From Magnetospira sp. QH-2 (GTDB lineage Bacteria > Pseudomonadota > Alphaproteobacteria > Rhodospirillales > Magnetospiraceae), in NCBI RefSeq assembly GCF_000968135.1, contig NZ_FO538765.1:2802001-2866000 (forward strand): 64,000 nt of DNA, written 5' to 3'. This document shows, one piece after another, positions 11,428-57,316 of the stretch. Numbering within the stretch: the stretch's first letter is position 1; every line of letters starts with the position of its first letter. A program made the translations under genes and the position numbers. The notes below the pieces were generated by a model that saw only the letters and a program-made list of their open reading frames with translations, had not been told where the DNA came from and did not search any database.

Positions 11428-12459
11428 TTAGATGGCGGTCTCCTCCTTGCGGTACTGGAAGTCCGTGCCGTCGATCCACATGCGATGCATGATTACGGCG
11501 AGACGCCGGGCAACGGCTACCTTGGCGCGTTTCATCCCGCGCCTTTTGGCGACCGCGAGCCCCCAGTGTTTGAGCCAGGACCAACGGCGGGTTCGAGTGA
11601 GAAGTGCATTGGCGGCCTCGAACAAAAGCCAACGAACCATGGCATCTCCGCACTTGCTGATGGGGCCGCTTCGGTCCTGCTCTCCCGAGGCGTATCTGCG
11701 TGGGACAAGCCCGAAGTGGGCGCCGACCATGACCGACTTTTGAAACCGTTCCGGCACGTCGAGTCCTGTCCTGAAAGCGAGGGCGGTAACCGGGCCGACG
11801 CCGGGAACGGTCATCAGGCGCCGGCAAACGCTATCATCGCGCGCAGCGGCATGAACCTGCCGGTCGAGCTTGTCGAGTTGTTCGAGCAAGGCTTGGCGCG
11901 CAAGCAAGAGCGGCTCGGCGGCTGCGCTGAGGTGCGGGTTATCAGCCGTCAATTCCCGAACCCGCGCCGCGAAAAGGCGTCCGCGCGCCATACCGACCTT
12001 GAGGCCGAAAGCTTTCAATGTTCCTCGTACCGTATTGGACAACTGACGGACCTGATGAACCAGGGTCTCCCGATGGGTCAGCACCATCCGGAGCTCCTGA
12101 CTGCGCGCGGTCTTGACGTGGGTCGCGCGGTACAAACCGGTCCGCATCGCCTGGCTGATCAAGCGGGCGTCGCGACGGTCCGTCTTGACTGGGCTGGCGC
12201 TGGCAAAGGCCTTCATTTGCCGGGTCTCGATACAAATCACAGGGAGGCCCCGACTGGACAGTCCTGCGGGCAGCCAAGGCGCCAGAGGGCCAGCTTCCAA
12301 CCCAATTCGCGCAAAGCCACGCCCGCTTTCCTCGAGCCAAGTGGCGACCGCCTCGGGTGTGCTTGACACCTTGCCTTCGCGAATGACGGTTCCCTTTGCA
12401 TCAATCTCACAGATCGAAATGCTTGCCATCGATACGTCCATTCCAACAAAATACTCCAT
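11428..12459 (-). CDS. IS110-family transposase (copy 1)
   Basis: DEDD-type transposase of 343 residues from MEYFVGMDVSMAS, whose ATG has GAGGAG upstream. The N-terminal RuvC-like domain has the first Asp in GMDVSMASISICEID and further acidic residues in VKTDRRDARL. The C-terminal Transposase_20 domain has VPGVGPVTALAFRTG and the conserved serine region YASGEQDRSGPISKCGDAMVRWLL. It differs from the other copies by single residues (for example LPAG where they have LYAG). A long antisense frame over it is a shadow. Confidence 0.93.
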   Translation of the reverse strand: MEYFVGMDVSMASISICEIDAKGTVIREGKVSSTPEAVATWLEESGRGFARIGLEAGPLAPWLPAGLSSRGLPVICIETRQMKAFASASPVKTDRRDARLISQAMRTGLYRATHVKTARSQELRMVLTHRETLVHQVRQLSNTVRGTLKAFGLKVGMARGRLFAARVRELTADNPHLSAAAEPLLLARQALLEQLDKLDRQVHAAARDDSVCRRLMTVPGVGPVTALAFRTGLDVPERFQKSVMVGAHFGLVPRRYASGEQDRSGPISKCGDAMVRWLLFEAANALLTRTRRWSWLKHWGLAVAKRRGMKRAKVAVARRLAVIMHRMWIDGTDFQYRKEETAI

Positions 12460-12570
12460 AGCTGGTCTCCTCTGTTCCATGTCCAGGAATTGACCCGGAT
12501 ACTTGATCAAGACCGAGTGTGGAGACCAGCTGACTGTTTAGGCAATCCCTGACTGCTCGATTACCGCCAT

Positions 12571-12782: not shown

Positions 12783-13280
12783 CTATTCGATGGTCATCCG
12801 GCGATCGGGTCCGGTGCGCTTGGGGTCATTGGAGCGGCGCCGGTTGGGGCCGAAATAGGTGGCCGAGCGCACAAAAGGCCGAGGTTTCATGATGACCTTG
12901 ACCACCGCATTATAAAGAGACAGGGGCGAAACCGGCTTGGCCAGGATCTCGTTGATGCCGCTGTCTCGGGCGCCTTCGATAACGGCAATCCGCGACCAGG
13001 ACGTAATCATGATAATCGGGATATAGGCATTGGCGGTGATGCCCCGGGTGCGCACCTGCTTTGTGAAGTCGCTGCCATTCATGTTGGGCAACAACCAATC
13101 GACGAGCAGAATGTCGGGCTGAAATCCGGATCTCAGCAACGTAATGGCATCCTCGGCACTGGGCACCACTTCGACTCGAGCGACTTTCAGATTCTTGAGA
13201 ATCGACACAGCCAGTCGGGCGGAGAACCGATTGTCCTCAACCAACAGAAAAGTAACATTCTGAAGATTTAACGATTCCAT
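12783..13280 (-). CDS. Single-domain response regulator (CheY-like)
   Basis: A 165-residue receiver protein. The acidic pair (LLVEDNRFS), the phospho-acceptor Asp in ILLVDWLLPNMNG, the switch Thr in IIMITSWS and the Lys in ILAKPVSP are all present, so it should be phosphorylatable. The receiver is followed by a basic tail of about 40 residues with two GPxRR motifs and no output domain. It is divergent from the proline-rich receiver protein at 13,575. No kinase is adjacent; chemotaxis or a diffusible phosphorelay is possible. Confidence 0.88.
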   Translation of the reverse strand: MESLNLQNVTFLLVEDNRFSARLAVSILKNLKVARVEVVPSAEDAITLLRSGFQPDILLVDWLLPNMNGSDFTKQVRTRGITANAYIPIIMITSWSRIAVIEGARDSGINEILAKPVSPLSLYNAVVKVIMKPRPFVRSATYFGPNRRRSNDPKRTGPDRRMTIE

Positions 13281-13574
13281 CTACGTTTCCGGATCACATG
13301 GCACCTCGCTCCCAGTGTATTATTAAAATGATTAACCATTGGTGCCTATTCACCTATAACCAAGATCCCCTTGGCAACGCAATGCTTTTTGACCAACCAA
13401 TCCTGATTGATAGCCTTTTTTGTCGGGATTCATCGTTCATGAACCCTTTGCGGTTAGACTGGTGAACCGGGCTTGAAATCATGGCATACTCAATCGTGGT
13501 CCCTTCCCCCGGCCCAAGGGGGTCAAAAATCCAAACCAGCGGCCCCACCGCCGCCCCAAGGAGTTTCGGGATAA
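13281..13574. promoter_or_regulatory. Divergent intergenic region between two receiver genes
   Basis: These 294 bases separate two divergently read receiver-domain genes and must hold both promoters. The tract is AT-richer than its surroundings around 13,315-13,345. AAGGAG at 13,558-13,563 is the likely ribosome binding site for the GTG at 13,575. I could not pick out unambiguous -35/-10 boxes. Confidence 0.35.
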
Positions 13575-15200
13575 GTGGCAAAACCTCTCATCAAAAAAGA
13601 TGTGCTCTACGCCTGCCCACCGTCGGCCCAGAGCACCTTGTTCCAGGTCAGCATGATCATGCGGGTGGCCGGGGTGGAAGAAGTCACCCAGGCCAAGCGG
13701 ATCCCCGAGGCGCAGGCTTTGTTCCGCAAGGACCACTTCGATATTATCCTGATCGACGAGTTCTTTCCCAATGCCGAGATCATGCAATTGGTCACGCTGG
13801 CCCGCACGCGCAAGGGCCTCAAATCTCCGGCGATTTTGGTCGTCACCGGGCCGGATTTCAATAACCGCCGGAAGCCGGAACTGACCCAATGCGGCGTACA
13901 GGGATTCCTGGCCAAGCCGGTGGACGGTGAAAAGATGCTCGAGATGCTGGGCAACATCTTTGAACAGCGGCGCCAAGCCCAGGTCGTCGCCAAGGATGCC
14001 GGGGCTTCGGCTGCCCGTAAAGTGGAAGTCAGCCGCAAGTCCGCCAATATCCTCGACCCAGAGGAATCCGCTCGTCAGGACGCCGCGCGCAAGGCCGAGC
14101 GCGAGGCCAAACGGCAAAAGGAGCAAGCCGCGGCCAAGGCCCGGGAGGCCGCCGCCGCGCCCAAATCCGCCACCACCGCCGAAGCCAAGAAAGACCCTGC
14201 CCGCAAGCCACGCCCCAAGGCAGCGGCGACACCGAAGGAAACCAAATCCGATCCTGACAAGCTTTACCGCCAGCGGCCCCGTGATCTTTCCGCCAAGGAA
14301 ACGCTGCCGCACAAACCGGCCCGCGTGATTCCGTTGAAGGGGAACGAGGGGCCGCAGGAACCGCCCGCCGCCGCGCCGCCACCGCAGACCGCGCCACCAC
14401 CGGCTGCCCCTCAGTATGCGGCCCCGCCACCACCGGCAGCCCCTCAGTATGCGGCCCCGCCTCCGTCTCAGGATCAATTGCTGAGCCAGTTGGGGGGGGC
14501 CTATGCCCCACCGCCGCCTCCGCCGCCCATGGCGCCGCCGGTGATGCCGCAGACTGCGCCGCCACCGCAGACTCAAAATGACCTGCTCGCCCAATTGGGC
14601 TTGGGCCAAGGTGCGCCTCAAGCGGCTCCCGTGGCACCCCAACCCGCGCCCCCGCAACCTGCTGCCAACCAACCCCAATCCCAAGAAGACCTGATGTCGC
14701 AATTAATGGGGATGATGGGGACCATGATGCAGGGCGGTATGCAACAACCTGGGCAACAACCTGGGCCGCAACCTGCCCCACAACCTGACCCACAACCTGG
14801 GCCATCGCCGACTCCGGTACCGGAATCCGCAGCGGCGCCCCAGGCCATGCCACCGGAAGCCACACAACCGGCGCCCGCCGCACCGCCGCCCTTGGCCGCG
14901 TCCCCCGAGGAAATACTAGCGGCGCAACCGGCCCCCCAGGCCGCACCCCAGGGCGCACCTCAGGGCGCACCTCAGGGCGCACCTCAGGGCGCACCTCAGG
15001 CCGCACCTCAGGCCGCTCCCGCAGCGGCCGCGCCGGAGCAACCTGCCAGTCCCGCGTCGTTCTTAAGCGGCAATTCGGAAATTCCCGAGCCGCCGCCGCC
15101 CGCGCCCAAGGCGCCGGATAGCGACGAGAGCGTGTCCCAAGACGAACTGTTGCAACAATTGGCCAACATGCTTGGCGGATCGTCACCGGGAAAGAGCTAG
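13575..15200 (+). CDS. Pseudo-receiver protein with long Pro/Gln/Ala-rich tail and repeated SQDxLLxQL motifs
   Basis: A 541-residue protein with a GTG start. Residues 1-130 resemble a receiver domain, with Asp61 (ILIDEFF), Thr in LVVTGPD and Lys in GFLAKPVD, but the N-terminal acidic pair is absent (LYACPPSAQS). Residues 150-250 are charged and Ala/Lys-rich; the rest is disordered Pro/Gln/Ala sequence. Embedded in it are four copies of one motif: SQDQLLSQL (298), TQNDLLAQL (333), SQEDLMSQL (369) and SQDELLQQL (521). A GAPQ tetrapeptide repeat lies near residue 460. It is divergent from a CheY-like gene. A scaffold that binds a CheY-like partner is my inference; no function is established. Confidence 0.75.
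   Translation: MAKPLIKKDVLYACPPSAQSTLFQVSMIMRVAGVEEVTQAKRIPEAQALFRKDHFDIILIDEFFPNAEIMQLVTLARTRKGLKSPAILVVTGPDFNNRRKPELTQCGVQGFLAKPVDGEKMLEMLGNIFEQRRQAQVVAKDAGASAARKVEVSRKSANILDPEESARQDAARKAEREAKRQKEQAAAKAREAAAAPKSATTAEAKKDPARKPRPKAAATPKETKSDPDKLYRQRPRDLSAKETLPHKPARVIPLKGNEGPQEPPAAAPPPQTAPPPAAPQYAAPPPPAAPQYAAPPPSQDQLLSQLGGAYAPPPPPPPMAPPVMPQTAPPPQTQNDLLAQLGLGQGAPQAAPVAPQPAPPQPAANQPQSQEDLMSQLMGMMGTMMQGGMQQPGQQPGPQPAPQPDPQPGPSPTPVPESAAAPQAMPPEATQPAPAAPPPLAASPEEILAAQPAPQAAPQGAPQGAPQGAPQGAPQAAPQAAPAAAAPEQPASPASFLSGNSEIPEPPPPAPKAPDSDESVSQDELLQQLANMLGGSSPGKS
14940..15023 (+). repeat. 12-bp tandem repeat inside the Pro/Gln-rich gene
   Basis: About seven in-frame copies of a GGCGCACCTCAG-type unit, each encoding GAPQ or AAPQ. 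The inner four units are nearly identical, suggesting recent slippage and likely length variation between strains. Confidence 0.85.
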
Positions 15201-15202
15201 AG

Positions 15203-15657
15203 GCTTTAGGGTATTCGCCAAGCATAGCCGCCAGGCAGGGGTCACCTTGCGCCAGTTAATGCACGAGATTCAGGCCGACTTCGGGGCGGCCCTGACCGGC
15301 ATCTTGTTCTCCCGCGAACTACATGTGGAAAATGAGACCCTGCGCCGCTGCTTTGTCGGCCTCATCCAGACCTATGCCGGCCATCTGACCCAAGCCGCCA
15401 CCGAGGCCCAACGGGCAGGAACCTTAAACGACAGTCTCTCCCCCGCCGACGTGGCGGCGTTGGTCACGGGCATCGTGCAAAGCTTGGCCCTGCGCTGGTC
15501 CATCAGCGAGCGGTCGATTCATCTTCTTGACCGGGGTCGCCACCGGGACTACTCCTTTGCCGCACCGCAACAAGGAGAGCGCCATGTCCCTGTCCAAGCC
15601 TGCCCCGCGCCGATTGATGCATACCCGCGAAATCGATTGCCGGGGCTATGCGCGTGA
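15203..15657 (+). pseudogene. TetR-family regulator remnant (C-terminal domain only)
   Basis: The reading frame contains a ligand-binding-type TetR C-terminal domain (FGAALTGILFSRELHVENETLRRC through VAALVTGIVQSLALRWSIS). The N-terminal helix-turn-helix is missing, and upstream sequence is occupied by the end of the previous gene. The frame also runs into the start of the next gene without a normal terminus. The simplest reading is a decayed regulator that lost its DNA-binding part by deletion. The assignment to TetR is by pattern recognition only. Confidence 0.5.
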
Positions 15658-28482: not shown

Positions 28483-28503
28483 ACTGGAAACCGGAGCCCC
28501 TTG

Positions 28504-29193
28504 ATGTCCGACAAACCCGCGACCCGACTGTTTGCCGCTGAAAAAGCGCTCTTGAATCACCGTACTGGATTGGATGGGAAGCCCTCGGAAGCCCCCTCTC
28601 CAGCCACGCTGGATCAGGTCATGGCAGAGTTGCGCGCGCTTCGGAGCACCGTCGAACAGCAGTCCGTGGGCGGACAGGGTGACGTGGACCTGTTGCGCGG
28701 CGAACTTTATGACCTGCACCGCTCCATCGAACGGACCAAATCCGAGATCAGCGCCCTGAACACCACCGACCACAATCCGCGGCAACAGCTCGACGCCGTC
28801 ATCGCCGACACGGAAAAAGCCGCCCATCGTATTCTCGAAGCGGCGGAACGAATCAGCGGTGAAGCGGAAAAGATGCTCGAAAAGGCCAAAACCGCGGAGA
28901 TAACCGAGGGATTGGAACATATTGTCGCCGAGACCGTGGCCATCTTCGAAGCCAGTTACTTCCAGGACGTGGGAGGTCAGCGGATCCGCAAGGTCATTGA
29001 TTTCCTGGAATACTTTGATCAGCGACTCGCCACCATGATTCATATCTGGGGAGCCCAGGATTTTGACCAACCGCAACGCCGCGCGAGCGATCGCGCTGGC
29101 GATGACAAAGCGCCCGACGCGGATCTTTTGAACGGCCCACAATTGGATGGCGAGGGCATGAACCAAGAAGATATCGACGCCCTGTTCGATTGA
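28504..29193 (+). CDS. cheZ: Chemotaxis phosphatase CheZ
   Basis: A 229-residue CheZ family protein that dephosphorylates CheY-P. The long coiled-coil hairpin spans residues 40-190 and contains the catalytic signature [21 protein letters not shown] with conserved Asp/Gln. The extreme C terminus [11 protein letters not shown] resembles the CheY-binding tail of CheZ and the FliM N-terminal peptide. The start ATG at 28,504 is preferred to the TTG one codon earlier. No other chemotaxis gene adjoins. Confidence 0.92.
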
Positions 29194-30223: not shown

Positions 30224-30673
30224 TCAGTCGGACACCTTGGTGCTGGCCCGATGCTGAATGAGCCGTGCCTGATCGTCCTCGATATCCAGCAATGGCGCCA
30301 GACGCTGCATGAGACCTTCTTCGAAGTCATGCAGCACGCCGTCGGCATACACCACGTCCCAGATCATTTCGGCCAGCCGTTCGCGCTCGCTGTCGGCCAG
30401 TTCATCCATGATCACCATGGAGCAGCTATATATCCCATGGGGACCGGCCAGCATCTCATCCACTTCCGCCAACAGGGAAACCACCTGTGAGGGGTCCAGA
30501 TTGAACTGCTTTCCAAGCAGCGAGTGAATGGCGTCTTTCTCTTTCTCATGATAAACGGCGTCCGACATGGCGGCCTTGACCAGCAAGGCCCCCACGGCAA
30601 TCTGCAAGGAGGAGAATTCTTCCTTGCCATGGGCATCCACCGGACCGGCAAAAAGGGTTTCGAGCTTGCTCAT
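30224..30673 (-). CDS. TerB-like domain protein, second of a tandem pair
   Basis: A 149-residue, mostly helical protein resembling TerB/COG4103: LQIAVGALLVKAAMSDAVYHEKEKDAI, then MIWDVVYADGVLHDFEEGLMQRLAPLLDI. The acidic positions in the first and last helices match the metal-binding residues of TerB-like folds. It overlaps its upstream paralogue by four bases. Function unknown; the tellurite label comes from the family, not from evidence here. Confidence 0.75.
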   Translation of the reverse strand: MSKLETLFAGPVDAHGKEEFSSLQIAVGALLVKAAMSDAVYHEKEKDAIHSLLGKQFNLDPSQVVSLLAEVDEMLAGPHGIYSCSMVIMDELADSERERLAEMIWDVVYADGVLHDFEEGLMQRLAPLLDIEDDQARLIQHRASTKVSD

Positions 30674-31131
30674 TCGGGCGAGACCTCCATCCGGGACCGG
30701 ACTTCGTCTCTGATCCGCAGGCTGTCTTCTTCCTCAATATCGAGGATGGGGCCGACCCGACGCATCAGGCGCTCTTCGTATTGATGCAGGAAGCCGTCGG
30801 CATACATGATCTCCCAGACCATGGCGAGCAAAGATTCGCGTTCGCTGTCGTCCAATTCGTCGTTCAGCACCATGGAACAGGCGTAGAGACCATTGGATCC
30901 CCCGAGAAATTCCAGAGCCGAGTCGATCAGAGCCGAGGCTTTCTCCGACTCCATCGCAAACCGCTGGCTCAATTGGCCTTGGATCATGGCCCGTTCTTCG
31001 GGCTGAAAGTCATCGTCGGCGGAAGCGGCCTTGATCAATAGCGCACAGACGGCGACCTGCAAGATGGTAAAGGCACCATCCTCGCCCTGCTCCTCGAAGA
31101 CACTGGTCAGTCGTTCGCTCATGTCGGCCAT
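30670..31131 (-). CDS. TerB-like domain protein, first of a tandem pair
   Basis: A 153-residue paralogue of the next gene: LQVAVCALLIKAASADDDFQPEERAMI and MVWEIMYADGFLHQYEERLMRRVGPILDI align with it across the whole length. It starts at 31,131 or three codons later. It lies 33 bases after the HAD gene end and is read in the same direction as secA-HAD, so all four may share a transcript. Confidence 0.75.
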   Translation of the reverse strand: MADMSERLTSVFEEQGEDGAFTILQVAVCALLIKAASADDDFQPEERAMIQGQLSQRFAMESEKASALIDSALEFLGGSNGLYACSMVLNDELDDSERESLLAMVWEIMYADGFLHQYEERLMRRVGPILDIEEEDSLRIRDEVRSRMEVSPE

Positions 31132-56173: not shown

Positions 56174-57205
56174 TTAGATGGCGGTCTCCTCCTTGCGGTA
56201 CTGGAAGTCCGTGCCGTCGATCCACATGCGATGCATGATTACGGCGAGACGCCGGGCAACGGCTACCTTGGCGCGTTTCATCCCGCGCCTTTTGGCGACC
56301 GCGAGCCCCCAGTGTTTGAGCCAGGACCAACGGCGGGTTCGAGTGAGAAGTGCATTGGCGGCCTCGAACAAAAGCCAACGAACCATGGCATCTCCGCACT
56401 TGCTGATGGGGCCGCTTCGGTCCTGCTCTCCCGAGGCGTATCTGCGTGGGACAAGCCCGAAGTGGGCGCCGACCATGACCGACTTTTGAAACCGTTCCGG
56501 CACGTCGAGTCCTGTCCTGAAAGCGAGGGCGGTAACCGGGCCGACGCCGGGAACGGTCATCAGGCGCCGGCAAACGCTATCATCGCGCGCAGCGGCATGA
56601 ACCTGCCGGTCGAGCTTGTCGAGTTGTTCGAGCAAGGCTTGGCGCGCAAGCAAGAGCGGCTCGGCGGCTGCGCTGAGGTGCGGGTTATCAGCCGTCAATT
56701 CCCGAACCCGCGCCGCGAAAAGGCGTCCGCGCGCCATACCGACCTTGAGGCCGAAAGCTTTCAATGTTCCTCGTACCGTATTGGACAACTGACGGACCTG
56801 ATGAACCAGGGTCTCCCGATGGGTCAGCACCATCCGGAGCTCCTGACTGCGCGCGGTCTTGACGTGGGTCGCGCGGTACAAACCGGTCCGCATCGCCTGG
56901 CTGATCAAGCGGGCGTCGCGACGGTCCGTCTTGACTGGGCTGGCGCTGGCAAAGGCCTTCATTTGCCGGGTCTCGATACAAATCACAGGGAGGCCCCGAC
57001 TGGACAGTCCTGCGTACAGCCAAGGCGCCAGAGGGCCAGCTTCCAACCCAATTCGCGCAAAGCCACGCCCGCTTTCCTCGAGCCAAGTGGCGACCGCCTC
57101 GGGTGTGCTTGACACCTTGCCTTCGCGAATGACGGTTCCCTTTGCATCAATCTCACAGATCGAAATGCTTGCCATCGATACGTCCATTCCAACAAAATAC
57201 TCCAT
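56174..57205 (-). CDS. IS110-family transposase (copy 3)
   Basis: Intact 343-residue DEDD transposase from MEYFVGMDVSMAS. All DEDD and Transposase_20 features described for copy 1 are present. With intact ends and transposase, this copy is the best candidate for an active element here. Confidence 0.93.
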   Translation of the reverse strand: MEYFVGMDVSMASISICEIDAKGTVIREGKVSSTPEAVATWLEESGRGFARIGLEAGPLAPWLYAGLSSRGLPVICIETRQMKAFASASPVKTDRRDARLISQAMRTGLYRATHVKTARSQELRMVLTHRETLVHQVRQLSNTVRGTLKAFGLKVGMARGRLFAARVRELTADNPHLSAAAEPLLLARQALLEQLDKLDRQVHAAARDDSVCRRLMTVPGVGPVTALAFRTGLDVPERFQKSVMVGAHFGLVPRRYASGEQDRSGPISKCGDAMVRWLLFEAANALLTRTRRWSWLKHWGLAVAKRRGMKRAKVAVARRLAVIMHRMWIDGTDFQYRKEETAI

Positions 57206-57316
57206 AGCTGGTCTCCTCTGTTCCATGTCCAGGAATTGACCCGGATACTTGATCAAGACCGAGTGTGGAGACCAGCTGACTGTCTAGGCAATCCCTGACT
57301 GCTCGATTACCGCCAT

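Follow-up and report, generated by a model that had tools for sequence, protein, structure and literature searches.

In E. coli, the C-terminal peptide of CheZ binds a receiver. The N-terminal peptide of FliM, which also docks on CheY, is given as LSQxEIDALL (PMC6700473) or LSQxEIDxLL (PMC5677366), and its contact residues are Q8, I11, D12 and L14/L15, with D12 forming a salt bridge to CheY K119 (PMC3774744 Table 3). The peptide prefers an active receiver (PMC7355467). Cle proteins bind c-di-GMP. In these proteins the receiver is followed by a tandem [YF]xGP[DE][RK]R extension rich in Arg; two of them, CleA and CleD, bind the FliM N-terminal peptide, and in a Caulobacter two-hybrid assay FliM altered at both residues of its Ile/Asp pair no longer bound CleA (PMC5677366). 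The statements on FliM and on Cle extensions and binding to FliM follow excerpts of these four papers.

Here we examined a gene of Magnetospira sp. QH-2 that encodes a receiver followed by a tail with four copies of a short motif. The gene lies in a 64-kb stretch of DNA, referred to below as the window. An earlier note on this stretch had suggested that the protein is a multivalent scaffold for a CheY-like protein, possibly the one encoded divergently beside it. Our own reading, which is tentative, retains part of that suggestion.

The motif gene and its product

The four motifs of the SQDxLLxQL type are present in the translation at exactly the residues where the earlier note had placed them, and the Pro/Gln/Ala-rich surroundings that it described are borne out (Table 1). 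The tail is about 290 aa long, with P/Q/A-rich repeats, including a GAPQ run, flanking the motifs. When the tail (residues 251-541) was searched by a procedure blind to the motif, the same four copies emerged as the top set of similar 9-mers, with a set score of 46.7 versus a mean of 31.8 (s.d. 1.5, maximum 37.2) for 385 shuffles. The strict motif pattern occurred in none of 20,000 shuffled tails, and the four-copy array is far above chance expectation. Across all six reading frames of the window, a loose version of the pattern matched these four copies and nothing else. Silent positions vary among the copies (Ser TCT/TCC, Gln CAG/CAA, Leu TTG/CTG/CTC/TTA), and the copies therefore do not derive from recent copy-paste events. 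The tail segment SPEEILAAQ was considered as a fifth, degenerate copy and rejected, as its score of 1.2 on the FliM-type profile described below is at chance level.

Table 1. Features of the motif gene and of the divergent receiver gene, in window coordinates.
Feature	Position	Strand	Basis
Likely ribosome-binding site AAGGAG	13558..13563	+	Sequence read; 11 nt upstream of GTG start
Receiver protein with motif tail, 541 aa, GTG start, stop included	13575..15200	+	Translation
Degenerate receiver domain, residues 25-125	13647..13949	+	PF00072 E 2.6e-7; Foldseek list headed by receiver structures
Long charged K/R/E/A helix, residues 162-194	14058..14156	+	AlphaFold helix; block mean pLDDT 91-95 at residues 171-190
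Motif copy 1 SQDQLLSQL, residues 298-306	14466..14492	+	Translation and motif-blind search; predicted helix 299-305
Motif copy 2 TQNDLLAQL, residues 333-341	14571..14597	+	Translation and motif-blind search; no predicted helix
Motif copy 3 SQEDLMSQL, residues 369-377	14679..14705	+	Translation and motif-blind search; predicted helix 370-384, block pLDDT 81
Motif copy 4 SQDELLQQL, residues 521-529, close to C terminus	15135..15161	+	Translation and motif-blind search; predicted helix 522-533, block pLDDT 74
Cle-like receiver, 165 aa, Arg-rich C-terminal extension YFGPNRRR...TGPDRR; candidate partner	12783..13280	-	PF00072 E 3e-18

The AlphaFold model of the 541-aa protein (32 sequences; mean pLDDT 64, pTM 0.43) consists of the receiver, the long charged helix and a mostly low-confidence tail. 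Beyond residue 194, helices of at least four residues were predicted only at copies 1, 3 and 4, the helix of copy 4 being not fully independent of the Cle-type proteins with FliM-like tails that the fold alignment includes. Block pLDDT is 70 at copy 1, beside which a polyproline block reaches 73, and 43 at copy 2. A comparison model of L115, a Cle-type protein with a true FliM-like end, has a terminal helix at residues 180-188 and a pLDDT of 72 in its last block. One fold alignment comprised 30 of 80 named Cle-type loci together with two window proteins, and another comprised 27 of the 80.

Two other regions of the window were noted in passing. An ORF at 15172-15657 overlaps the 3' end of the motif gene and has a weak TetR-like C-terminal match (PF17926, E 8e-4, below the cut-off) and no helix-turn-helix match; judging from its sequence, it looks like the remnant of a 5'-truncated regulator. 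Farther downstream, an adjacent pair of TerB-domain genes (PF05099) lies at 30224-31131 (-), between accA and the secA region.

The receiver, its relatives and the divergent neighbour

The receiver domain falls within PF00072 by a narrow score (31.2 bits for a cut-off of 30.2). Read by eye, it retains the beta3 Asp (ILIDEF), the beta4 Thr (VVTG) and the beta5 Lys (AKP), and in comparison with Cle-like relatives it has VLYACPPS where the beta1 acid pair should stand. Of the residues of a phosphorylatable receiver (acid pair, Asp, Thr/Ser and Lys), only the acid pair is thus missing, and because it has been replaced, the domain has probably lost phosphorylation. The Arg-rich [YF]xGP[DE][RK]R extension of the Cle proteins is absent from the 541-aa protein.

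Searched alone, the window receiver had a match in 53 of 60 relatives. The best was the second receiver of L003 (31% identity, E 1e-14), a two-receiver protein from another family than that of the host (G052:C44:12128-13999, minus strand); the ordinary receivers L004, L006 and L005 followed, slightly ahead of L009, the first of the Cle type. A profile built from the window receiver and both L003 receivers had a match in 312 of the 317 Rhodospirillales genomes, and its best rows apart from L003 and the window were short receivers, many of them coinciding with the positions of Cle-like matches; L003 weighs heavily in this profile, and its second receiver shares up to 47% identity with short receivers of its own family, mostly of Cle length. 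Two trees of 31 chosen receivers each were calculated. In the first, built from Cle-type and own receivers, the receiver of the window protein grouped with those of L003 and L281 (G081) at 97/95. In the tree to which 11 other receivers had been added, and which lost one of its 32 members because the profile found no domain in it, the window receiver stood outside the L003/L281 group, among ordinary receivers at 90/84. The two trees disagree, and the kinship of the window receiver beyond L003 appears unsettled. Since the second tree removed it from the L003/L281 group, our confidence in the docking function proposed below was lowered.

Close orthologues of the full 541-aa protein were not found in the named genome contigs, where 76 stretches matched a pattern and none was a relative; these genome searches covered at most one genome per species, and many of the assemblies are fragmented. 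Within the family of the host, three genomes from two genera were searched, the host included, and a clear homologue was not found in the other two (93% and 81% complete, in many contigs). The search of plasmids with the 541-aa protein returned one weak match, in Photobacterium (13% covered, E 2e-3).

The 165-aa receiver is indeed encoded divergently from the motif gene, as had been claimed. It is 39-45% identical to 22 Cle-like relatives, its extension is a degenerate version (YFGPNRR and RTGPDRR), and no FliM-like peptide was found at its end. It has Ala125 at a nearly invariant Arg of the family, which corresponds to CheY K119, the residue contacted by FliM D12. The proposal that this neighbour is the partner of the motif tail is therefore weakened by the Ala, and gene position, the sole pointer to it, makes it a plausible partner and not a certain one. 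The lost Arg of the neighbour beside an array with a lost D12 site is a notable coincidence, but it gives no covariation signal: the Arg is retained (by eye) in L222 (described below) and in the second L003 receiver, and the motifs of these two proteins likewise have no Asp. Beside the Cle-like gene lies a transposase-like ORF of 360 aa, 11428-12510 (-), equal in length to another at 56174-57256 (-); the former we take to be an IS110-type transposase.

Named loci of Cle-like relatives include those of the Rhodospirillales Roseospira, Novispirillum and Magnetovibrio. From a scan with at least 490 confirmed relatives, the best 80 named Cle-type loci were taken, in two of which the locus end truncates the ORF. 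A strict pattern finds an SQ-type FliM-like motif C-terminal to the receiver in 17 of the 80, a relaxed pattern adds 6, and neither pattern matches in the other 57. Most of the aligned SQ-type loci read LSQ[DAS]E[IV]xALLxG at the very end, a position that the motif does not always occupy in the 17 strict-pattern loci. Near their ends, the Rhodospirillales Cle-type receivers L115, L119, L122, L123, L131, L139, L157, L163, L166, L186 and others carry an almost perfect copy of the FliM N-terminal peptide (LSQ[DA]E[IV]xALLxG). Such an end could act as a self-docking element or as a competitor of FliM, if its sequence is a guide. Among the matches listed from the open-licence PMC literature, the excerpts contained no description of a FliM-like peptide near the ends of Cle-type receivers.

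FliM-type peptides and motif tails in other proteins

The FliM of the same genome has LNQDEIDSLL (peptide VLNQDEIDSLLG), and a CheY-like protein of this genome is L223 (G000:C1:2270883-2271251). The CheZ of the window (28501-29193; PF04344 E 5.8e-12) ends in NQEDIDALF, in agreement with what had been reported. A similar sequence, SQDDLDALF, occurs in an acidic EPEP linker of a PopZ-family protein of the host (L075 1587-2333 (+), G000:C1 about 1,548,590-1,549,330), which was assigned by NF052660 (E 7.5e-32, below its cut-off) and PF10691 (E 1.4e-23). With this FliM/CheZ-like linker sequence, a polar organiser might be able to dock a CheY-like protein.

Measured by the FliM contacts, the window copies keep the Gln at the Q8 site and have a Leu at the I11 site. 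All four lack the Asp of the D12 site, where they carry Leu or Met, and in the plain register they also lack the Leu of the L14 site, where they carry Gln; no Leu precedes the Ser. For a quantitative comparison we used a FliM-type profile of 24 hand-picked instances, 18 of them distinct, each score being the better of the plain register and a register with one inserted residue. True FliM-type instances scored 23.2-34.7 bits in-sample and 17.2-33.7 bits on leave-one-out (18 distinct). The window copies scored 12.9 (copies 3 and 4 each, both fitting better with one inserted residue), 8.3 (copy 1) and -0.8 bits (copy 2), so that every copy is below all true instances, leave-one-out included. The best place in each of 1,000 shuffled window tails scored 1.2 on average (s.d. 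2.8, 99% point 10.2, maximum 14.6), and at least one shuffle thus outscores copies 3 and 4. The array is at best a divergent version of the FliM-type peptide.

Similar tails were found in three other proteins. L222, of the same genome as the 541-aa protein (498 aa from a GTG; G000:C1:1342412-1343908, minus), combines a divergent receiver with an Arg-rich extension and a long P/A-rich tail, which contains two motif copies, SQKDLLNALLNG (copy 1) and SQQDLLATL (copy 2). The idea that within the host genome the motif is confined to the window protein is ruled out by L222. A first, narrower pattern had given four matches in that genome, three in the window and one in a short unrelated frame, and had missed L222 because it was too narrow at the third and eighth residues. 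When the receiver and extension of L222 were searched in the 317 genomes, no orthologue was found, the next best among the matches listed being receivers of about Cle length at 39%. The ORF of L222 overlaps by 4 nt, on the same strand, that of L219, a protein of 266 aa, and because of this overlap the two (together L246 7616-9909 (-)) are probably translated together. The L219 receiver, by eye, has neither the acid pair nor the beta3 Asp; an Arg-rich extension and a P/A/K tail follow, and the protein ends in MSQEELANMLGKNKKGG, which has ANMLG in common with window copy 4 (SQDELLQQLANMLGG).

L003 resembles the 541-aa protein in its second receiver, in its P/A/Q-rich tail and in the C-terminal TQETLLAALL of its end, TQETLLAALLKPSK, but differs in having two receivers, both without the beta3 Asp (by eye), and a single motif copy. 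In about a dozen ORFs of relatives that were read, the LL-type tail motif was shared with L003 only; L278 has no motif, and the contigs of L281 and L279 end before the C terminus is reached. The last of the three proteins, L319 (G244, family f19), is represented by the last 174 aa of an ORF whose start is cut by the contig start, so that its N terminus, with any receiver, lies off the contig. Its P/A/Q-rich tail holds SQEALLAAL, SQNDVLAAL and SQEELLAAL. The segment SQNDVLAALGL resembles the window TQNDLLAQLGL, and the two tails did not align past one motif (E 0.76).

A single pattern, written once all copies were known and wider than the strict one, finds four copies in the window tail, three in L319, two in L222 and one in L003. 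Among 20,000 shuffles of each tail, one copy appeared in 20 (window), 4 (L319), 9 (L222) and 1 (L003), and two copies in none. A receiver, a P/A/Q-rich tail and at least one copy of [ST]QxxL[LM]x[AQT]L are found together in the 541-aa protein, L222 and L003. At the DNA level, a pattern for the LL-type motif had 64 rows in 54 of the 317 genomes, with no overall excess in Rhodospirillales over a reversed control (about 70 matches); the pattern undercounts, as it misses both copies in L222 and all but one of the three in L319. Of these rows, 30 were examined as loci, giving 21 lines that include the window and L319, and none of the other 19 lies within a P-rich tail as judged on 50 residues each. 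Tails with one to four copies are, on these sequences, patchy in the Rhodospirillales, and in at least two cases the receiver in front belongs to, or lies near, the Cle group.

Some of these motifs come closer to FliM than the window copies do. Copy 1 of L222 (LNALLNG, one inserted residue) reaches 22.8 bits, within the leave-one-out range, and is by its profile score a bridge between the LL-type motif and the FliM-like type. The remaining scores are 15.9, 15.6 and 11.5 bits for L319, 15.0 for L219 (SQEELANMLG), 5.7 for L222 copy 2 and 5.6 for L003. A link of the LL-type motif to the FliM-type peptide is supported by such bridging forms.

Possible functions of the array

We tentatively favour the interpretation that the 541-aa protein is a receiver hub, probably dead for phosphorylation, with four weak, helical docking sites for receivers that are either related to FliM or convergent on it, although this reading could well prove wrong. 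The receiver and the disordered tail would together form a signalling hub, in which four short amphipathic helices of the form [ST]Q[DEN]xL[LM]xQL may represent a variant of, or a convergence on, the FliM-type CheY-docking peptide seen near the ends of many Cle-type receivers. For each copy the target would be the alpha4-beta5-alpha5 face of a receiver, bound weakly; this receiver might be a CheY, a Cle protein, the protein's own receiver or a sister pseudo-receiver, and the four copies could gather or titrate several regulators at once. The protein may have a role in motility. The original idea of a multivalent CheY scaffold therefore survives in part. In its favour are the recurrence of like motifs in L222, L003 and L319, the FliM-like peptides that follow the Arg-rich extension in Cle-type receivers, and the binding of the FliM peptide by CleA and CleD in the excerpts of PMC5677366, whereas the D12 and L14 departures of all four copies and their low profile scores speak against it.

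The same departures would also be expected if the motifs bound a partner other than a receiver, such as a polar hub or some other protein of the motor or divisome, with the likeness to FliM reduced to a helix-capping SQ[DE] and leucines. The self-consistent core [LV][LM]x[QAT]L, shared by 10 copies of four proteins, and the second tree, in which the window receiver may be unrelated to Cle, fit a partner of this sort. The bridging forms of the same genome, L222 copy 1 and the L219 end, sit on Cle-type receivers, however, and we regard a non-receiver partner as somewhat unlikely. Docking in cis or between like molecules, on the protein's own receiver or on sister pseudo-receivers, would lead to auto-inhibition or self-assembly and not to the capture of CheY or Cle proteins. 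Motif and receiver do occur as a pair in L222, L003 and the window protein, and the loss of the acid pair may have left the receiver as a structural adaptor, but the FliM peptide prefers an active receiver (PMC7355467, in excerpt) and that of the window looks non-activatable; we consider this arrangement unlikely. It is more improbable still that the tail is merely fast-evolving, low-complexity sequence and its copies functionless internal duplications. The P/Q/A-rich repeats around the motifs, the patchy distribution and the lack of a clear match in the two same-family genomes are what neutral duplication would leave behind, yet the pattern has been kept while silent positions diverged, and the motif recurs in three other proteins.

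A broader version of the favoured docking-hub interpretation is that in some Rhodospirillales CheY/Cle-like receivers have turned into phosphorylation-dead multivalent hubs, whose FliM-mimic tails capture or cluster CheY/Cle regulators off or beside the flagellar switch. In this general form we think that it probably does not hold. If it were true, capture by FliM-mimic tails would add to motor control a layer of titration or condensate formation. On the docking-hub interpretation, docking of the FliM/CheZ type would extend from single terminal peptides to multi-copy arrays on receivers, and the variable C-terminal regions of Cle-type proteins would gain a testable role. A prior description of a receiver-borne motif array was not found among the matches listed from the open-licence PMC literature, as far as their excerpts go.

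Compared with the described systems, the window copies share with the FliM peptide a short amphipathic helix that starts with SQ[DE] and lies in a disordered region, but they differ in forming an array of four. The CheZ peptide is likewise a terminal motif, on a chemotaxis protein, and keeps an I-D-A-L-F core that the array does not have. In the host, L222 and L219 resemble the Cle proteins in their receiver and Arg-rich extension, and carry a motif tail as well. The 541-aa protein, in contrast, departs from the Cle proteins in lacking the [YF]xGP[DE][RK]R extension, in its degenerate pocket and in its long tail with four motifs.
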